DNA of 64,000 bases from Nibricoccus aquaticus (GTDB taxonomy: Bacteria > Verrucomicrobiota > Verrucomicrobiia > Opitutales > Opitutaceae): contig NZ_CP023344.1 of NCBI RefSeq assembly GCF_002310495.1, positions 1,736,001 through 1,800,000 on the forward strand, read 5' to 3'. The notes below the pieces were generated by a model. It saw only the letters and a program-made list of their open reading frames with translations. It had not been told where the DNA came from and searched no databases. Below are positions 4,173 to 28,492 of the stretch, piece by piece (position 1 is the first letter of the stretch; every line of letters begins with the position of its first letter). The translations under genes were made by a program, and so were the position numbers.

Positions 4173-4472
4173 ATTTTGGCAGGTTGGATGGTGGTGGTGA
4201 AACCACTCACCATGCTAACTCAGAGAGCAGCATGGCGGGTGTGCGGGCGAACCCGACTCCCCAGCGCGAGCTGAGTCAAGCCGGACGCCTTGGGCGATGG
4301 ATGCACACGGAGAAAGTTCACCTTGCCGTAACGCATCAGCAGCTAGCACGCCGAAGCCCCCAGATGGTTGAAAATAATTAAACACCTCCGCCTTACGCCT
4401 GCTTAACCAGCTCCGGTCCAAACCCGCCTCCACGCCTCGGGCCCACCCACTCACCGGCTGCAAACACGCCGC
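4173..4472. other. 300-bp spacer upstream of the TonB receptor
   Basis: No convincing gene. On the minus strand it contains two small hairpins: CATGCT/AGCATG at about 4213-4236, and GACTC/GAGTC around 4256-4278. It also holds an AGTCGGG-loop-CCCGC element that only loosely resembles a cobalamin-riboswitch B12 box. It probably holds the receptor promoter and leader, plus the end of the gmk transcript. No riboswitch class could be assigned. Confidence 0.5.
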
Positions 4473-5102
4473 TCACCCCGCCTTCGCCACCCGCGCCGCC
4501 ACCTCGCGCCAGATCGCCAGCAACGCCTGGAAGTCCTCCTCACGCGACGCGCTGTGTATCTGGTAATCGAACTTCCCCGCCTCCCGCTGCTCGAATTCCA
4601 CCGTCTGCATCCGGTGCTCGATCTCCGCCTCGCTATCCTGCCCTCGCGCCACCATCCGCGCCCTCAGCTCCGCCAGCGGCACATGGATAAACACCGTCGC
4701 CAGATGTTTCGCCAGCAGCGCATTCGCCGCCCCCGCCCGCCGGAAATTCTCCACCCCCTGCACATCGACATTGATGATCAGGCTCCGCCCCGCGCTGAGC
4801 GGCCCAAGCACATCAGCCGCGAGCGTCCCATAACGGTTCTTCTTATGGACCCACGCCCACTCCAAAAACGCACCCGCCGCGATCTTCGCGTCAAACGCCT
4901 CCGGAGTCAGAAAATGATAATGCACCCCGTCCACCTCACCCGGCCGCGGAGCCCGCGTCGTCGTCGTCACCACCCGCGAAAACCCCGGCGCCTCCGCCAC
5001 CATCCGGTCGCACAACGTCGACTTCCCCGACCCCGCCGGACCGGCGATCACGATCAAAACAGGAGCGGACAACACAGGGTTAACTTCACGAGAAGACGAC
5101 AT
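4473..5102 (-). CDS. gmk: Guanylate kinase
   Basis: Transfers phosphate from ATP to GMP to give GDP in purine nucleotide synthesis; cytosolic. The 209-residue protein has the P-loop GPAGSGKS at residues 21-28, the GMP-binding stretch TTTTRAPRPGEVDGVHYHF, and the usual length of the family. The start is the first Met of the frame and gives a 12-residue leader before the core, so a slightly later start is possible. Unlike many genomes there is no rpoZ or coaBC beside it. A membrane protein and miaB precede it on the same strand, with spacers of about 40 and 18 nt, so the three may be co-transcribed. Confidence 0.96.
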   Translation of the reverse strand: MSSSREVNPVLSAPVLIVIAGPAGSGKSTLCDRMVAEAPGFSRVVTTTTRAPRPGEVDGVHYHFLTPEAFDAKIAAGAFLEWAWVHKKNRYGTLAADVLGPLSAGRSLIINVDVQGVENFRRAGAANALLAKHLATVFIHVPLAELRARMVARGQDSEAEIEHRMQTVEFEQREAGKFDYQIHSASREEDFQALLAIWREVAARVAKAG

Positions 5103-7258: not shown

Positions 7259-7438
7259 ACCTCCGCCACGCCCGCTTCAGACAAGATCGATCACACGCCA
7301 CTTCGCCCGCTATGCAATGCACCCATGCCTCAGCCATAGCTCCGTCTCCCTCCGCGATCTCCCCCGGACCCACTCATCCACTTTCCCCTCGCGCCAGCCC
7401 CGAACTCCCGCCCTCTTCGTTTGTCCAACCCCGTCGGA

Positions 7439-8578
7439 ATGCGACCCTTGCGCCTCTTACTTTTAGGTTCCGCCACGGCCCTGCTGCTGCCGTATCTGCG
7501 CGCCCAGGATACGCCTCCCGCCGCAGCCGCTGAAAAATCCGACACTGCATCAACAACGACGCCTCCGCCCGCCGCCAAGCAGCCCACCCCCGCCGACTTC
7601 GACGACCTCTACAACCTCGGCCGCCAGCTCTTCGACGACTACGCCCCCGAAGCCATCAAAGACCAGTACGAGTTCGTCTCCAAAGATCAGTGGGACAACT
7701 TCACCGGCCGCCTCCAGACCTCCCTCGAATCCGGCTCCGTCGCCGACCTCGCCTCCCTCGAATCTGAGGCCCGCCGCACGCTCGCCGCGCTCCGCATGAT
7801 GCCCGCCTACGCCGAGTACGCCGACTGGCTCGCCGAGCGTCTCGACTTAATGGAGACAGCCCGCCTCGTCACCCGCTTCCCCGCCCCGCCGCGCGTACTT
7901 CTTCCGGTCCCCAAAGACACTCCCGACGCCCCCGCCATCACTCCACCAACCCCCACCACCCCACCCGCCGTCGCCTTCGCCGCGCCACCCCGCTCGCCCG
8001 TCCCGTTCTACGACATCTGGCACGAGCGCATCCGCACCCGCCCGCGCCCCGCCAAAGCCGACGAGCTCATGCCCGTCCTCAAAGTCATCTTCGCCGCCGA
8101 AGGCATCCCCACCGAACTCGTCTGGCTCGCCGAAGTGGAATCATCCCTCAACCCCTCCGCCCGCAGTCCCGCCGGTGCCCGCGGCCTCTTCCAACTCATG
8201 CCCGCCACCGCGCGCGCCTTCGGCCTGAGCACCTTCCCCTTCGACGAACGCACCCAGCCCGGCAAAAGCGCCCGCGCCGCCGCGAAATTCCTCCGCGTCC
8301 TCCACGAACGCTTCGACTCCTGGCCCCTAGCCCTCGCCGCCTACAACGCCGGCGAAGGCCGCATCGCCACCGCGCAAAAAAAAGCCGGCTCCCCCGACTA
8401 CGCCGACATCGCCGATCTCCTCCCCTCCGAGACCCGCATGTACGTCCCCAAAGTCCTCGCGACTCTTGCCGTCCGCGAAAAAACCCTCCCCGCCGCGCTC
8501 ACCGTCCCGCTCACGCCAGCCCCCGTCACCTCCGGCCGCAGCTCGCTTTTCCCCTCCGCTTTCGCAACCGACGAATAA
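7439..8578 (+). CDS. Secreted lytic transglycosylase (SLT/MltD type)
   Basis: Cleaves the glycan strands of peptidoglycan in the periplasm. From the ATG at 7439 the 379-residue protein starts with a signal sequence (MRPLRLLLLGSATALLLPYL, then RAQ). A helical region of about 130 residues and a Pro-rich linker follow, then the SLT domain at about 214-330 with catalytic Glu in EVESSLNP and the family motifs GARGLFQLMP and ALAAYNAGEG. A TTG start at 7421 is also possible but would put six polar residues before the signal peptide. No LysM repeats are visible at the C terminus, unlike E. coli MltD. Confidence 0.92.
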   Translation: MRPLRLLLLGSATALLLPYLRAQDTPPAAAAEKSDTASTTTPPPAAKQPTPADFDDLYNLGRQLFDDYAPEAIKDQYEFVSKDQWDNFTGRLQTSLESGSVADLASLESEARRTLAALRMMPAYAEYADWLAERLDLMETARLVTRFPAPPRVLLPVPKDTPDAPAITPPTPTTPPAVAFAAPPRSPVPFYDIWHERIRTRPRPAKADELMPVLKVIFAAEGIPTELVWLAEVESSLNPSARSPAGARGLFQLMPATARAFGLSTFPFDERTQPGKSARAAAKFLRVLHERFDSWPLALAAYNAGEGRIATAQKKAGSPDYADIADLLPSETRMYVPKVLATLAVREKTLPAALTVPLTPAPVTSGRSSLFPSAFATDE

Positions 8579-13845: not shown

Positions 13846-14006
13846 TTCCGACTTTTGCTCGCACGCCGACGTCCGCACCGTCCCTACTTCGCCTCCCGTT
13901 TCCCCAGTCGTTCCGCCCCTCAGAAATAATCCTCACCCCTCCGCACTTTCGCTCCTCCGCGTTTCCACGATTAACTCCGCCACTCGACCCCTTCCGCCGC
14001 TTCCTC

Positions 14007-14040
14007 TTTCACCCTTCACCTTTCACCCCTCACTCTTCTC
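14007..14040 (+). repeat. TTTCACCC simple-repeat tract before a start codon
   Basis: Degenerate repeats of TTCACCC / CTCACTCTT end two bases before the ATG of the cupin gene at 14043. A longer copy is inside the GH20-like gene at 18943-18975. Confidence 0.6.
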
Positions 14041-14042
14041 GC

Positions 14043-14543
14043 ATGCCCGCCCCCAACCCCGCCGCCGCCGCCCTCATCGCACGTCTCAATCTCCAGCCTC
14101 TCCCGCACGAAGGCGGTTACTTCGCCCGCACCTGGACCAGCCGCGAAACCCTCCCCAACGGCCGCCCCCTCGGCACCGCGATTTATTTCCTCCTCACACC
14201 CGCCGGCTTTTCCGCGCTCCACCGCCTCGACGCCGACGAGCTCTGGCACTTCCACAGCGGCGACCCCGTCGAACACCTCCAACTCCCGCCTTCCGGCCCC
14301 GCCCGCATTTCTCACCTCGGCGCCGACCTCGCCGCCGGCGAAATCCCCCAACTCTCCATCCCCTCCGGCATCTGGCAGGGCGCCCGCCTCGCGCAAAACG
14401 CCCGCCTCGGCTGGGCCCTCCTCAGCTGCACCATGAGCCCCGGCTGGACCGACTCCGGCTTCGAACTCGCCGCCCGCCCCGCCCTCCATTCGCAGTACCC
14501 CGCACACATGGCCTTAATCTCGTCCCTCACCCGCACCGATTAA
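14043..14543 (+). CDS. Cupin-superfamily protein, DUF985 type
   Basis: A 166-residue single-domain cupin. It has the family's opening (LIARLNLQPLPHEGGYFARTW), the strand IYFLLTPAGFSALHRLDADELWHFH with the putative metal or ligand histidines, and a closing CTMSPGWTDSGFEL segment. DUF985 proteins are small cytosolic beta-barrels; some have been linked to sugar-nucleotide epimerase-like folds, but no reaction is established for this one. It starts right after a pyrimidine-rich repeat tract and is followed 146 bp later by pdxH on the same strand. Confidence 0.85.
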   Translation: MPAPNPAAAALIARLNLQPLPHEGGYFARTWTSRETLPNGRPLGTAIYFLLTPAGFSALHRLDADELWHFHSGDPVEHLQLPPSGPARISHLGADLAAGEIPQLSIPSGIWQGARLAQNARLGWALLSCTMSPGWTDSGFELAARPALHSQYPAHMALISSLTRTD

Positions 14544-17019: not shown

Positions 17020-17210
17020 TTAAGAGTGAAACGTTCAGCGTTGAGCGTTCCCGCCCTCAGAGCGCCAGCTAGCTTCTGGTCATTGGTCATTCGCGCGAGC
17101 GCGGCAAATCCCCCGCCGACTACCGCTCCCGCTTCAGCTCCTCCGGCATATAACTCCACGCGCCTCCGCTTTTTCCACTGGTCATTGCTCACTCGGTCAT
17201 TGGTCATTTC
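17020..17210 (+). repeat. TGGTCATT-type and GTTGAGCGTT simple repeats
   Basis: The 16971-17214 spacer is filled with degenerate repeats. GTTAAGAGTG / GTTCAGCGTTGAGCGTT lies at 17020-17050, CTGGTCATTGGTCATT at 17076-17091, and related CTGGTCATTG...GGTCATTGGTCATT at 17177-17210, which ends just before the sixA start. No gene is seen. Confidence 0.6.
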
Positions 17211-17709: not shown

Positions 17710-17732
17710 CTGGTCAATGGTCACTGGTCATT
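17710..17732 (+). repeat. TGGTCAYT repeat just before a start codon
   Basis: TGGTCAATGGTCACTGGTCA followed by TT; it ends 8 bases before the ATG at 17741. Confidence 0.6.
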
Positions 17733-17740
17733 CTTCCCCC

Positions 17741-19765
17741 ATGCTCCGCGCCTTCCAATGGGACCTCGCCCGCCAGGTCGAGCGCCTCGACGTCCTGCTC
17801 AAACTTCTCCCGCGCTACGCCGACTGGGGCTACAACGAACTGTATCTGCATCTCGAAGACGCCGTCGAATACCCCTCTCTCCCCACCGTCGCCCGCGCCG
17901 ACGCCTACTCCCACCGCCAGCTCCACCGCCTCGTCAACACCGCCGAGCGCCACGGCATCCGCACCGTCCCCATCGTCAATCTCCTCGGCCACACGCAGTA
18001 CCTGATAAAAGCCCCCGCGCTACGCGACCTGAACGAACTCCGCGCCCCCGACGGCTCTCCGCTCGAGCGCGGCCAGATCTGCCCGCTCCACGCCGACACC
18101 CTCGCCGTCGCCGAAAAACTGCTACACGACACCGCCCCCTTCTGCACCGCCGGCAAAGTCCACGTCGGCCTCGACGAATCCTTCCACCTCGGCAAATGCC
18201 CGCGCTGCCGCGCCGAAATCGCAGACCGCGGCCTCGCCGCCCACTTCGCCGGCCACGTCAACCGCCTCCACACGCTCACCTCCTCGCGCGGTCTCCAGCT
18301 CGGCCTCTGGGCCGACATGCTCAACTTCATCCCCTCCGCGATCCCGCTCCTCCCGCGCGACATCGCCGCCTACGACTGGTACTACTACCCCTTCACCCGC
18401 CACCCGCGCGTCGAGCTCTTCAACTTCGCCGAGTCCGACCTCGCCACGCCGCTCGCCAAACACGGCATCGACTACTGGGGCTGCCCCATGAACGGCGCCT
18501 TCCGCTACGAGCCGCTCCCCCTCTTCCGCGACCGCCTCGCCAACCTCCGCTCCTGGTGGAAACGCTGTCACGACACCAACGCCGCCGGCTTCCTCGTCAC
18601 CTCCTGGGAAGCCTACCGCCTCGCCCTCGAAACAACCACCGTCGTCGATGCCGCCGCCGCATCCCTCTGGCTGAACCCCAAAAAATCCACCGACGACGAA
18701 ACCCTACTCACCGCCGGTTTCGAACGCGTCTTTGGCAAAGGCAAAAAACTCAGCGCCCGCCACGCCGCCCGCACCGCCCTCGCCGCCGACGCCCGCGCCT
18801 TCACCGGCTACGCCCGCTGGGAAATCAACGACCGCTGGGACCTCCGCGCCGCCACGACTCGCTCTCCCGCCTCTCGCCTGCGTACGTCCACTGGTCACTG
18901 GTCATTGGTCACTGGTCATTCCCCCTCCTCTCCGTCCGCCCCTTTCACCCTTCACCCTTCACCCTTCACTCTTCCTCGCCCGCTCGCCTCCAGCCTCGCC
19001 TTCCTCGCGTACTTGGAATCCCGCGACACCTTCGTCGCCCGCGCCGCCGACGGCATCTTCGCCCTCCGCCGCACATTAGCCTCTTCCGCACGTCCGAACT
19101 CTCAACTCTCAACCCTCAACTCTCAACTCGGCTCGTCTCCGCTCATCCGTCTCCGCCTCGACGACCTCACCCGCGACGCCCGCGTCTTCGCCCGTCAACT
19201 CGCCACCGGCCGCCGCGCTGCCCGCGCCATGTGGCTACGCACCCGCGACGCGAAAGTCCGCGGCCAAAACGAGCTCATCCTCGACGCCGACGCCGCCCGC
19301 CTCGCCACCTGGCGCACCTTCCTTCGCTCTCTACGCCGACGCCCCGACCTCGCCCTCGATACCACGCCCGTCTGCGGCCGCTGGCAGCTCGTCTTCACCG
19401 TCGAGAACATCGCCCCTGCTCTCCAAAAAATCGTCGTCGAACAACAACAGCCCGACCGCACCTGGCGCGAACTCCGCGCCCGCCACACCATCGAATTCCG
19501 CTCCGAAGCCGCGCAACCGCGCGCCAATATTTCCCGCCTCTTCTCCACACCCATCGACGATCCGTCGCGCCCCCTCCGCCTCTCCCTCCGCGGTCTCGGC
19601 CAAGTCGCCATCCGCGACCTCGCGCTCACCAACTGCGTTACCACCCTCCGCCCCGCAGCCTGGCCACGCACCACCAAAAAAATCCTCGGCCACCCCGCCC
19701 CCACCCGCGGCTTCCCCGACATCACCCGCACCCTCGCCACCCTCCCCCTCCGCTTTCCGAGATAG
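17741..19765 (+). CDS. GH20-like beta-N-acetylhexosaminidase carrying in-frame repeats
   Basis: A 674-residue protein whose first 330 residues form a GH20-type TIM barrel. The catalytic Asp-Glu pair is in KVHVGLDESFHLG, with supporting motifs YNELYLHLEDAVEYP and a WGCPMNGAFRYE segment. GH20 enzymes remove terminal GlcNAc or GalNAc; here there is no signal peptide, so it would be cytosolic. Two stretches interrupt the protein: about residues 384-412 are encoded by TGGTCAYT and TTCACCC repeats, and about 453-463 by a CTCAAC repeat (STLNSQL). Both families also occur between genes. The C-terminal 210 residues are Arg-rich and unassigned. The Met at 17741 follows the repeat at 17710 and is preferred to 17717. 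Confidence 0.75.
   Translation: MLRAFQWDLARQVERLDVLLKLLPRYADWGYNELYLHLEDAVEYPSLPTVARADAYSHRQLHRLVNTAERHGIRTVPIVNLLGHTQYLIKAPALRDLNELRAPDGSPLERGQICPLHADTLAVAEKLLHDTAPFCTAGKVHVGLDESFHLGKCPRCRAEIADRGLAAHFAGHVNRLHTLTSSRGLQLGLWADMLNFIPSAIPLLPRDIAAYDWYYYPFTRHPRVELFNFAESDLATPLAKHGIDYWGCPMNGAFRYEPLPLFRDRLANLRSWWKRCHDTNAAGFLVTSWEAYRLALETTTVVDAAAASLWLNPKKSTDDETLLTAGFERVFGKGKKLSARHAARTALAADARAFTGYARWEINDRWDLRAATTRSPASRLRTSTGHWSLVTGHSPSSPSAPFTLHPSPFTLPRPLASSLAFLAYLESRDTFVARAADGIFALRRTLASSARPNSQLSTLNSQLGSSPLIRLRLDDLTRDARVFARQLATGRRAARAMWLRTRDAKVRGQNELILDADAARLATWRTFLRSLRRRPDLALDTTPVCGRWQLVFTVENIAPALQKIVVEQQQPDRTWRELRARHTIEFRSEAAQPRANISRLFSTPIDDPSRPLRLSLRGLGQVAIRDLALTNCVTTLRPAAWPRTTKKILGHPAPTRGFPDITRTLATLPLRFPR
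18891..18975 (+). repeat. Two simple-repeat tracts inside the GH20-like frame
   Basis: CTGGTCACTGGTCATTGGTC and continuation at 18891-18920, then TTTCACCCTTCACCCTTCAC and continuation at 18943-18975. Both match repeats found between genes (17076, 17177, 17710 and 14007). They are read as TGHWSLVTGHS and FTLHPSPFTL. Confidence 0.8.
19097..19129 (+). repeat. CTCAACTCTCAACCCTCAAC repeat inside the GH20-like frame
   Basis: Degenerate CTCAACY units, read as NSQLSTLNSQL. Related tracts lie at 25112-25143 and 26428-26453 inside two other genes. Confidence 0.75.
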
Positions 19766-19778
19766 GGCCGGCTCCGAG

Positions 19779-19804
19779 GTAGGGCCGGCACGCCGTGCCC
19801 GGCC
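19779..19804. repeat. REP-like palindrome, GTAG-headed (GGCCGGCACG type)
   Basis: GTAGGGCCGGCACGCCGTGC then CCGGCC; a partial unit (ATAGGGCCGG) precedes it at 19763. It lies between the converging GH20-like gene and TonB receptor. Confidence 0.7.
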
Positions 19805-19846
19805 TCTTTGCCTCCCCCTCCCGCCGACACCTCACCTCTTACCCAC

Positions 19847-24903: not shown

Positions 24904-26036
24904 ATGAACTACTACTACGCCAACACCGCCAACCAGCCCGCCGGCCCCGTCACCCTCGACGAACTCCAAAAACTCCTCGCCCGCGGTGAAATCACCCCCG
25001 CCACCCACATCATCCCCGTCGGCGAAACCACCTGGCGCCCCCTCTCCACCGTGCTCCCGGCCACGCCTCCGTCGCCCTCATCCGCCTCCGCGCCTTCCTC
25101 CACCCCTCCGTCCCTCAACTCTCAACCCTCAACTCCCAACTCTCCGCCCTCCGCTCCCCCCCGGCTCCCGCCCCCGCCTTCAAACCCACGGACGCCGCCA
25201 AACTCCCCGCCCTGCTCGCTACGTTTATCGGCAGTCTCCTCGCCAAGGCCCGCGCCCTCCTCTCCGTCGCCCGCCTCACCGCACTCTTCACTGCCGCCGG
25301 CTCTTTCGGCCAGCTCATCGTCCTCGCCGGCGCCCTCCTCGCACTCATCTACGGCGTGGTCTACGCTATCAAGTGGGACTCATTCGAAGTCTTTCTCTAC
25401 GGCCTCGCATCCGTCCTCGTCCTCGCCGTCCTCCAATTCGTCGCCAAACGCCTGCTCGATGCCTGCGCGTCCATCCTGAAAACCTCCCCCACCCGCATCG
25501 CCTCCATGGCAGTACTCGAATGCCTTGGCCTGGTCCTCCTGCTGGCCGCCATCGGCGCGCTCATCGGTGGCATCATCACGGCGATTCAAGTCGAGTCATT
25601 CACTCCGATCATCCCCGCGCTCGTCTCCTTCGTCCTGCTCACCGCCTTCGCTGGCGTCGCACTCCACCCATCACTCGCCAACGTCGAGGAGGCTCCTGCC
25701 ACCGCCGGTGAAGAAGCCATCGGCCTTTTCTCCTTCTTCGCCAAGGCCGGCCTCGCCCTCCAGCCGCTACTCTTTGCCGTCTACGCGGCTGCCGGAGCCA
25801 TCGTCATCCTCTTCGCCCTTTTCGGAAGCGACGTCTCCCTCTCCCTGGGCGGCCTCATCCTGCTGCCCACGACCATCACCCTCTCAGGCGGCGGCCCCGC
25901 AGGTGCCGCCATCATCGCATCGGCCTGCCTCCTCCCCCTCACCGCCTACCTGACCTTCCTGCTCTACTACCTCCTCATCGACGTCCTCCGCGCCATCCTC
26001 TCAATCCCGCAAAAACTCGACCAACTCCGCCGCTAA
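24904..26036 (+). CDS. GYF_2-domain multispanning membrane protein, split by one-base frameshift
   Basis: The start frame gives MNYYYANTANQPAGPVTLDE and the rest of a GYF_2 domain (about residues 1-50), then a Pro/Ser linker. The continuation is in the preceding frame from about 25155: APAFKPTDAAKLPALLATFI, then roughly seven hydrophobic helices (for example FGQLIVLAGALLALIYGVVY and LVLLLAAIGALIGGIITAI) to the stop at 26036. Adding one C to the C7 run at 25156-25162 joins them into an about 377-residue protein. GYF domains bind proline-rich sequence, and the next gene encodes a proline-rich membrane protein 42 bp downstream, so the two products may interact; that is inference. A GTG at 25356 would give only the C-terminal part. 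Confidence 0.72.
25112..25143 (+). repeat. CTCAAC simple repeat inside the GYF_2 gene
   Basis: CCTCAACTCTCAACCCTCAA and continuation, encoding SLNSQPSTPNS in the linker just before the frameshift. Confidence 0.65.
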
Positions 26037-26078: not shown

Positions 26079-28492
26079 ATGCCTCCTGATTTCCCACCGC
26101 CTCCTCCGCCTCCCACTCCTCCGCGCGCCCCCGGAGCCACGCCTGCACCACCCCCGCCCCCTCCTGCGCCCCCGCGCCCACTCACCCTCTCCCGGCCTTC
26201 AGCTCCTCCGCCCCCCCCGTCATCCGACACCATTCCCCCACTCTCCTTCTCACTCCCGCCCATCCCCCTGCCTTCCTCAACTCCCACCCCTCCACTCTCC
26301 CCGCCTCCGCCCTCGCCCAAACCCGCGCCATCGTCCCCGCCTCCCCCGCCCCCCGCCGTATCCGCATCCCCGGCACACCCCCGCGCCCACCTTCCCCGCC
26401 ACCCGCCGCTCCACCGCTCCCGCCCTCCACTCTCAACCCTCAACTCTCAACTCCTCCTCCGCCCCCCGCCCCTCCACTCCCGCAGGCCCGCCTCGCCCCC
26501 AAGACCCGCCTCGCCCTCATCCTCGGCACCGCCCTCGTCCTCCTCATCACCGCCGCCCTCACCTGGTCCCACCTCCGTAAACGCGTCCCCGACGCCGACT
26601 TCATCGCCTGGCTCCACGCCCAGTCCGACACCGGCCTCACCATCGGCCAGCTCACCAAGACCTCCACCCCACAACCCGACGGCTCCAGCCTCATCGCATT
26701 CGAAGCCACCGCCACCGTCCCCGCCGCCCTCTACGTCCGCGAAGACACCGCCCACCACCTCCGCCGCACCCTCGACCTCGATCCCGCCTCGCCTTCCGCC
26801 GTCCGCGAGGCCGCCCAGACCGCCTCCGACGCCCGCCTCCGCGAACGTGCCGGACTCTCGGATACACCCGCCGACCCGCTCGCCGCCGTCATCCTCCGCG
26901 AAACCACCCCCGCCGGGAAAACCCTCCCCTTCACCGGCACCGCCCTCGCCACCCGCATCGACGGCCACTGGCGCTTCTCCCTCCGCGAAAACCCCTTCGC
27001 CTCTCCCGCCCTCGAAGGAAAACCCCGCGCCTCCTTCGGCGAAAAAACCTACCTCGCCGGCAACCCCGACGATGACGCCGCCCTCAAACAACTCGTCGAA
27101 ACCCAGACCGACGCCCTCGCCCGCCTCGAAAAAGCCGCCGCCGATTTCCTCGACGAAAACAAACGCGACCGCGGATCGCGCCTCACCCGCTTTCACGACC
27201 TCCTCGCGACAGGCACCCTCTTCGTCGGCCGCACCACCCGGGAAGCCAGCGAGGATTTCTCCCTCGAAATCACCACCCCCAAACCCGGCGCCCGCCAGCT
27301 CACCGCCCTCCTCCGCATCTACGGCCACGGCTGGCTCGATGCCCGCCCCTTCACCGGCACCTGGACTCTCGACGACACCACCGGCGTCTTCTCCCTCACT
27401 CTCACCTCGCGCCCCAATCAGGCCATCCCCGGCGCCGGCTCTCTCCTCGAATCCACCAACCCCATCACCCTCGCCCTCACCCTCGGCGAAGACGGCGAAC
27501 TCCTCAGCGCACCCGACAGCCCCATCCCGTTAAAAGCCACGCGCATCGCCCCCGAAAAACTCGCCGCCACCAAAACCAAACTCACCACCCGCCTCGAGGC
27601 CCTCCTCGAAGCCACCCGCCCCGACACCCTCTACCACGGCACCGCCACGCCAAAGGCCGGCGACGCCACCGCCGAAAAAATCCTCCTCCGCTTCATCAAA
27701 CAAACCGACGACGGCGCATCCTTCACCGCCGCCTTCGAGTCCGCCGAAGCCGGCGCCACCGCGAAACGCCCACTCCACGGCACCCTCATCGACAATCCCC
27801 GCCGCGCCTCCAGCCAGCCCATCCGCCTCCACATGCCCGGCAACGGCCGTTCGCGTAGTGCCAAACCGGGCACACTCTTCACCCACGTCGCCGACACCAC
27901 CCCGGCCCTCAAACTCGACGGCACCCGCCTCTCCGGCGAAGACGCCGCCTTCACCTACGAATTCACCCGCATAAGCGCCGCCCAGGCCGCCGCCCTGAAA
28001 AAAGCCGCCGCCTCCAACGAGCCCAACCTCCCCCGCTCCTCCGGCGTCCATGCCCAGATCGACGACGAATGGACCGCCCTCCCCCGCAACGGCGGCAGCA
28101 CCTCCGGCGGCTTCATCAAAAGCCTCTTCTCCAAAAAAGACGCCGATAAACCCGCCGTGCTCACCTTCAAAGGCGACACACCTGCGCCCATTGTCTCTGG
28201 CGAAAAGCTCACCCTCACCTTCAAAGGCAAACTCCCGTCGCGCGCCAAAGGCGTATCCGACGATTACCCACTGATCGAAGCCGCCCTCACCACCGCCCAA
28301 CCCGACGGCACCCGCACCGCTCCGCTCGAAAAAATCAGCCCCAACTTCAACGGCTTCGGCACCACCCGCCTCCCCGCGACGATCGCCCAACCCGCCGCCG
28401 ACCTCCTCACCATCACCTTCCCCGAAACTCTCGCCCCCGGCACCTACGCGATCTTGGTCGGCTCCGACGGCTACGAATTCACGGTCAAATAG
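26079..28492 (+). CDS. Proline-rich single-pass membrane protein of unknown function, frameshifted
   Basis: From 26282 or earlier to the stop at 28492 one frame reads as a normal protein with no start codon until 27833. It has a Pro-rich stretch, one membrane helix (LALILGTALVLLITAAL, about 26513-26563), then about 640 residues of mixed extracytoplasmic sequence, including WLHAQSDTGLTIGQLTK, YLAGNPDDDAALKQLVE and the ending GTYAILVGSDGYEFTVK. The plausible start is the ATG at 26079 (MPPDFPPPPPPPTPP), one frame away. A missing C in the Pro-rich part, for instance the C8 run at 26211-26218, would join them; the exact site is unclear. It follows the GYF_2 gene by 42 bp. I do not recognise the large domain. 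Confidence 0.65.
26428..26453 (+). repeat. CTCAACCCTCAACTCTCAAC repeat in the proline-rich gene
   Basis: Same degenerate family as 19097-19129 and 25112-25143; encodes STLNPQLST ahead of the membrane helix. Confidence 0.65.

Follow-up and report, generated by a model that had tools for sequence, protein, structure and literature searches.

Heptanucleotide repeat arrays oriented by replichore and read in frame within a GH20-like gene of Nibricoccus aquaticus

TAACTGA direct repeats are heptamers of Beggiatoaceae, Cyanobacteria and Bacteroidetes, for which the published account states that there is no evident spreading mechanism (MacGregor 2015, PMC4679880). One orientation of the TAACTGA unit is stopped in all frames and the other is open, and eight M. 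aeruginosa sets located between stop codons share one orientation (PMC4679880). The GGGAATC repeats of Xanthomonas are 89-93% intergenic, form G-quadruplexes and show no leading/lagging preference (PMC4692102). Here we describe three heptamer families, with units TGGTCAY, TTCACYC and CTCAACY, that occur together inside the gene of a GH20-like protein of Nibricoccus aquaticus (Opitutaceae). The gene lies in a stretch of 64,000 nt (assembly GCF_002310495.1, contig NZ_CP023344.1, positions 1,736,001 to 1,800,000 of the forward strand; hereafter, the window). Across the genome (4,730,447 bases, one contig), nearly all arrays of these families keep one orientation per replichore.

The palindromic elements of Rickettsia have spread in frame into coding sequence and are tolerated in proteins; they are longer than the heptamer arrays and palindromic. 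The arrays share with them the in-frame presence inside genes as extra peptide, and are not palindromic or hairpin-forming. Repetitive extragenic palindromic sequences (REPs) tagged with GTAG/CGTC and mobilized by REP-associated tyrosine transposases (RAYTs) are also small dispersed repeats, sometimes inside genes, and Opitutus terrae is named as highly enriched in GTAG repeats; the Y1 enzymes use single-stranded DNA, of which the lagging strand is an important source (PMC3733652, PMC6006769). Unlike REPs, which are palindromic and carry a tetranucleotide tag, the heptamer arrays lack the palindromic hairpin, and no GTAG/CGTC tag was seen by eye in their printed flanks. IS200/IS605 insertions follow the direction of host replication via the lagging-strand template (PMC5371812, PMC6006769). 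The arrays resemble them in this orientation; unlike the arrays, IS200/IS605 elements are transposons with a transposase that recognizes structured ends, and none was linked to the arrays.

The three families resemble the TAACTGA repeats in that the unit has 7 nt, most species have few copies in each set, the distribution is patchy, sets are frequently located just before start codons, a single orientation is open to translation, and some sets are inside ORFs, mostly at the protein periphery (PMC4679880). They differ in the unit itself and in that genic copies are common here, whereas the TAACTGA repeats are mostly intergenic in BOGUAY; orientation by replichore was tested here, and no such test is found in the covered sections of the TAACTGA account (PMC4679880). 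As in the Xanthomonas GGGAATC and Nostoc GGGGA(T/C)T repeats, 7-nt arrays are dispersed and the majority have at least four units. The strand result is opposite to that of the Xanthomonas heptamers, and polarity is therefore not general to all heptamers (PMC4692102). A literature search covering titles and abstract openings found no account of heptamer repeats oriented by replication strand. That repeats are tolerated in coding sequence is known; the replication polarity and the near-fixed unit are new.

The GH20-like protein (P0001) has 682 amino acids, with a Pfam PF00728 (GH20) match at residues 11-204 (E 1.1e-11). Its ORF runs without a stop across three arrays, one of each family (Table 1), and the corresponding peptides, which include LVTGHSPSSPSAPFTLHPSPFTLPR and NSQLSTLNSQL, read as the preliminary description of the window had claimed. 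The unit that it gave as TGGTCAYT is one letter too long; all three units are of 7 nt. The conserved GH20 protein begins near position 17741, and the first ATG is itself formed by a TGGTCA array. The haplotype of the CTCAACY array of this gene is also present in relatives.

Table 1. Heptamer arrays and associated gene (positions of the window)
Feature	Position	Strand	Remarks
GH20-like protein gene (P0001)	17717..19765	+	ORF, Pfam PF00728, 61 orthologues aligned
TGGTCAY array, directly 5' of GH20 gene	17711..17730	+	
TGGTCAY array of 4.3 units, encoding TGHWSLVTGHS	18889..18918	+	peptide in none of the other 61 alignment rows
TTCACYC array of 4.4 units, encoding FTLHPSPFTL	18944..18974	+	peptide in none of the other 61 alignment rows
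CTCAACY array of four units (T-C-T-T), encoding NSQLSTLNSQL	19097..19129	+	peptide in none of the other 61 alignment rows
TTCACYC array, just 5' of called start codon at 14043	14006..14038	+	
TGGTCAY array, intergenic	17077..17091	+	
TGGTCAY array, imperfect	17176..17208	+	
CTCAACY array, in linker of GYF_2-domain gene	25114..25158	+	GYF frame from ATG 24904
CTCAACY array, in open frame of about 26090-28492, ahead of membrane-type segment (by eye)	26423..26457	+	

P0001 was aligned with 61 orthologues from other genomes, out of 71 fetched loci; the ten loci with short ORFs (L050, L053, L054, L055, L057, L060, L062, L063, L064 and L071) were left out. Eight test words taken from the three repeat-coded peptides were absent from all 61 orthologues, in none of which were the same residues seen encoded by unrelated codons. 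L057, compared with P0001 separately, shows gaps at the repeat-coded segments; among the relatives fetched it is the nearest one of almost full length, with 78% identity over its best segment. The first two peptides occupy a variable region, bounded by RWD and P[LF]AAS, where P0001 is longer, and the third lengthens a second variable linker. Based on this alignment, the repeat-coded in-frame segments of the GH20 protein are lineage-specific. L001, L005, L011, L016 and L020 are among the orthologues with different long extra sequence at one or both linkers; that of L020 contains GRDARAT, which we take to be repeat-coded.

An AlphaFold2 model of P0001 built on 36 sequences has a mean predicted local distance difference test (pLDDT) of 86.5. 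The predicted structure is least confident at residues 381-420 (blocks of 46-69), with a pLDDT of about 72 over residues 461-470. Selection at the protein level could have retained the peptides as functional linkers of the enzyme, and the intact frame would fit such a role, as would the helices modelled at 385-399 and 464-472, whose confidence is low to moderate. We find this barely credible, given that the peptides are present in none of the 61 other aligned orthologues, also occur in unrelated proteins and, in the first region, coincide with the least confident part of the model. The repeat-coded segments would presumably be neutral for the enzyme.

Double units of the three families are found genome-wide in numbers far beyond chance (CTCAACYCTCAACY, 77; TTCACYCTTCACYC, 28; TGGTCAYTGGTCAYT, 195), a 14-mer with two twofold-degenerate positions being expected, by our own arithmetic, well under once in the genome. 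The backward patterns gave 14, 0 and 27 matches, respectively; this control is too high for CTCAACY and TGGTCAY, since their arrays change little when read backward. As in heptanucleotide short tandem repeats, tandem 7-nt units are dispersed in many copies. There are two points on the chromosome at which their matches change strand. When the matches are merged into arrays, 40 of 42 CTCAACY and 22 of 22 TTCACYC loci are on the strand expected for their replichore, while all 100 TGGTCAY matches among those listed (of 195 in total), which lie below 1.93 Mb, are on the + strand. The two CTCAACY exceptions are located at 1.588-1.608 Mb, where the GC skew is locally inverted (+0.2 to +0.3 in six of eight blocks). 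In this segment (L100, G000:C1:1588001-1608000), GC skew and CTCAACY arrays are reversed together, which looks like a fairly recent inversion.

We analysed placement in 41 stretches, namely the window and 40 stretches of 20 kb, half of them evenly spaced and half at array clusters. By local skew, 89 of their 93 arrays are on the C-rich strand, and three of the other four are of CTCAACG type. The GC skew of this genome is extreme, ranging from -0.32 to +0.35 in 20-kb stretches and being near zero in two of the 20 even ones, and it switches sharply at about 2.097 Mb and 4.475 Mb. A search for parS with up to two mismatches gave three places (2155199, 2887598 and 4180603); the sole perfect palindrome, at 2155199, lies within mnmG and next to mnmE (about 2.153-2.156 Mb). 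Because the skew switches near 2.097 Mb and this palindrome is at 2155199, the origin may be placed at about 2.1 Mb, so that the + strand of the window would be the lagging sense. The leading strand is as a rule G-rich, and on this basis the C-rich strand would be the lagging one. The dnaA gene, at 376-855, was rejected as an origin mark given the positions of the skew switches; a search for 16S rRNA in this genome had no match, versus a match in nine of 14 control genomes. Judging from the array positions themselves, the orientation by replichore holds whatever the placement of the origin.

The same polarity was obtained for repeats defined de novo. Repeated 16-mers, counted in blocks with a skew of 0.08 or more, formed 48 families, with 298 copies in the family-majority orientation relative to the C-rich strand and three against it. 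For 19 motif families, whose reading was set by the de novo majority in the same stretches, the ratio was 225 to 6, with three ambiguous. One stretch overlapping another (L076, with L096) was left out of both counts and of the CTCAAC-structure counts given below. The CTCTGTG motif was mixed (4:3, two ambiguous), so the method is able to show mixture.

Such polarity might be a by-product of base composition, with C-rich words more frequent on the C-rich strand and copies in the opposite orientation lost by decay under strand-asymmetric mutation. The skew, whose absolute value reaches about 0.35 in 20-kb stretches, and the C-richness of CTCAACY and TTCACYC are consistent with this idea, which is nevertheless very unlikely because 11 de novo families with a G-rich reading on the C-rich strand show an orientation of 107:0; TGGTCAY, with a G count at least equal to its C count, is oriented 31:1. 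Gene direction was likewise discarded as the cause: between two G-strand genes, the 19 motif families still show 24:1, with three ambiguous, and orientation is therefore independent of it. The numbers of genes on the two strands in the even sample are not far apart (165 C versus 138 G). Inside genes, the 19 families together have 50 copies in C-strand genes versus one in G-strand genes; for the heptamers, such a bias is what a filter by stop codons predicts.

This filter follows from the units themselves. Because 7 and 3 have no common factor, the seven residues encoded by a heptamer array are identical in all three frames. TGGTCAY, TTCACYC and CTCAACY are open in sense and contain TGA in every antisense frame, as is the case, open in sense and closed in antisense, for 18% of all heptamers. 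Only genes on one replication strand therefore accept arrays, and the frame still requires a fitting length of the insertion. Genes were called in the 41 stretches with our own codon-usage model (668 genes, 86% coding). The count of arrays inside and outside genes, proposed in the preliminary description for the whole genome, gave in these stretches 44 in sense within genes, one antisense and 48 intergenic. The sole antisense array has CTCAACG units and corresponds to the TTGAGCG family in backward reading. The families had been described as otherwise lying between genes, which is the case for most TGGTCA and TTCAC arrays (six of 32 and six of 17 in sense within genes, respectively) and, in this sample, not for CTCAAC (32 of 44).

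In-gene arrays avoid Pfam domains, as judged from the envelopes matched in 28 genes: six of 41 arrays are inside an envelope versus 20.1 expected (P 2e-7). This count does not include the antisense array or three arrays of two genes lacking a Pfam match, considers the best stretch only where a protein has two of one family, and leaves envelopes below the curated cut-off uncounted. The six arrays are inside DUF58, Ig_Rha78A_N, HI0933, SRP54, AMP-binding and HAD-type hydrolase domains. Several others separate two domains; NAD synthase, asparagine synthase, carbamoyltransferase and exosortase are examples. The earlier suggestion that the repeats spread into genes and persist where a linker tolerates them is largely right, in this gene and in others, and is supported in part: the lineage-specific segments and the avoidance of domains agree with it, but CTCAACY is not mainly intergenic in the sample, and a stop-free reading needs no case-by-case luck. 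The preliminary description did not mention the strongest feature, the orientation relative to replication.

The structure of the arrays bears on how they arise. If they were ordinary microsatellites, slippage in situ would have expanded a chance seed and the peptide would have been tolerated; the tandem structure, the long and uniform TGGTCAY arrays of about 14 to 21 units (716873, 1627037 and 1924743) and long CTCAACY tracts in a contig of a viral collection (L213) point in this direction. The unit number of CTCAAC arrays does not vary freely, as simple slippage would require: among arrays of at least three units, 26 of 32 in this genome, and 18 of 25 distinct ones from relatives, have exactly four. 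TCCG is located at exactly -7 of 20 of 45 CTCAAC arrays versus a background of 1.1%, and internal variants (haplotypes) recur, both here and in relatives. The near-constant number of four units, the leader and the recurring variants argue that what is copied is a nearly fixed unit of about 35 nt. From these regularities, CTCAACY forms an element of four units, nearly fixed and often preceded by a TCCGTCT-like leader, and is not a product of free slippage. Additionally, the same doubles are found in 105 (CTCAACY) and 47 (TGGTCAY) of 252 genomes of the family, a number that includes N. aquaticus, in patchy bursts with empty neighbours. We consider the microsatellite explanation unlikely, although not negligible. 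TGGTCAY arrays do vary, from two to about 21 units, and slippage therefore acts on them; this family seems to expand by slippage after its arrival. A recurrent left flank resembling cctgctactcgcgccagcgcat was observed before TGGTCAY arrays (e.g., G000:C1:1021116, 1924743 and 2376356), several of which are followed by GC-rich inverted repeats.

In relatives, orientation was compared with local skew in 40 stretches from 13 genomes of four genera, chosen at listed matches, and was 29:1 for TGGTCA and 21:4 for CTCAAC, with three ambiguous. Shorter relative loci with a skew of at least 0.14, whose sites partly overlap this sample, gave 18:4, and repeats of 12 families were mixed (33:9) in one genome (G048). 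Two scans of viral contigs gave 32 and 23 stretches; in L213, the CTCAACY tracts at 4443-4559 and 7335-7478 lie 2.8 kb from each other in opposite orientations, with other short repeats next to them.

The arrays might be selected regulatory or binding sites, acting in 5' leaders or as polar chromosome signals of the kind of the FtsK-orienting polar sequences (KOPS) or Chi, with genic copies as spill-over. Nine of the 11 intergenic TTCAC arrays are located 7-38 nt before a called start on the same strand (L092, L093, L098, L104 and others), a position similar to that of TAACTGA repeats (PMC4679880), and the strict polarity along the replichore would also be expected of such sites. However, the distribution is patchy, with no CTCAACY double in 147 of the 252 family genomes, polarity is common to many repeat families, and CTCAACY is often in genes of unrelated function. 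We regard selection for such sites as quite unlikely.

Taken as a whole, the account that we favour, and consider fairly probable, is that of fork-oriented, dispersed heptamer elements filtered by stop codons and protein domains. The repeats would be small dispersed elements with an internal 7-nt periodicity, whose copies read CTCAACY, TTCACYC or TGGTCAY on the C-rich strand, probably the lagging-strand sense. Copying would proceed through single-stranded DNA at the replication fork. Selection would then filter the copies: inside genes they would survive only where the C-rich strand encodes the gene, and there mostly outside conserved domains, provided that their length keeps the frame. The GH20 gene would be a C-rich-strand gene that took three copies. 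In a bolder form, which we put forward only tentatively, hairpin-less heptamer mini-elements of about 30-35 nt may be copied via single-stranded lagging-strand DNA without a self-encoded transposase, and may hence have one orientation per replichore across several Opitutaceae genera and, by virtue of a sense strand free of stops, lengthen the proteins of lagging-strand genes.

Several observations weigh against the favoured account. As to the agent of copying, no enzyme was identified: none of the four array strands tried folds into a hairpin, the three weak PF01797 matches of a genome search for Y1 transposases are not tied to arrays, and the Y1 transposase was rejected as the mover of the heptamers. 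The single reverse transcriptase match in the genome (G000:C1:3749728-3750081, in a frame of 1033 amino acids) is likewise untied to arrays; a TTCACYC double is located near it, at 3747437. As to the element, 25 of the 45 CTCAAC arrays are without TCCG at -7, and the L213 tracts far exceed four units, so free expansion occurs elsewhere. As to the filter, the codon phases of genic CTCAAC arrays are uneven (14/15/3), the gene caller is home-made and unvalidated, and 20 of the 41 stretches were picked at array clusters; the window and the even sample alone have four of 21 arrays in genes versus 44 of 93 overall, and the genic share therefore depends on the sample. As to orientation, dnaA is far from the skew switch. 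In relatives, some of the four CTCAAC exceptions are arms of inverted pairs, and orientation was judged by local skew. Because gene direction contributes to local skew, this result is weaker than the replichore result for the genome itself. Finally, in the first repeat-coded region, P0001 is without part of a segment shared by the orthologues, i.e., there is a replacement with net gain and no clean insertion. The genus is represented by one genome; there is consequently no empty site in a sister strain, and no insertion was seen as an event.

Downstream of the GH20 gene, the preliminary description placed the CTCAAC family in the linkers of two proline-rich genes. Both arrays are real (Table 1), but P0002 and P0003, the coding frames in question, have no Pfam match and a low-complexity composition and look like wrong frames; we discarded them. 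The GYF_2 Pfam match and a membrane-type segment (up to 26036) are in different frames, with the CTCAACY array and a C run between them. At 24904-26036, either the gene is frameshifted near the array, or it is phase-variable, or the nearby C run was misread by a sequencing error. Among the fetched loci, homologues of the GYF gene were limited to two weak matches. The next open frame (26090-28492, 2.4 kb) has no ATG, GTG or TTG before 27833. Just 3' of the GH20 stop, at 19756-19828, there is a REP-like repeat (GAGATAGGGCCGGC / GAGGTAGGGCCGGC, followed by an inverted repeat), and a motif related to it, CCGAGGTAGGGC, has an orientation of 11:0.

Catalogues of heptamer repeats exist for several bacterial groups, and how these repeats spread is not evident from them; the TAACTGA account says as much of the mechanism (PMC4679880). 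In N. aquaticus, a near-absolute polarity, which is kept between genes of either strand and follows a segment of inverted skew, points to the replication fork as the site of copying. It also suggests a rule for the gain of peptides, namely that they would be acquired by genes on the strand that reads the repeat without a stop. As regards annotation, NAD synthase, asparagine synthase, carbamoyltransferase and other enzymes carry repeat-coded peptide that probably does not represent conserved function. If the bolder form of the account is true, the arrays would be a directional source of new linker peptide in lagging-strand genes.

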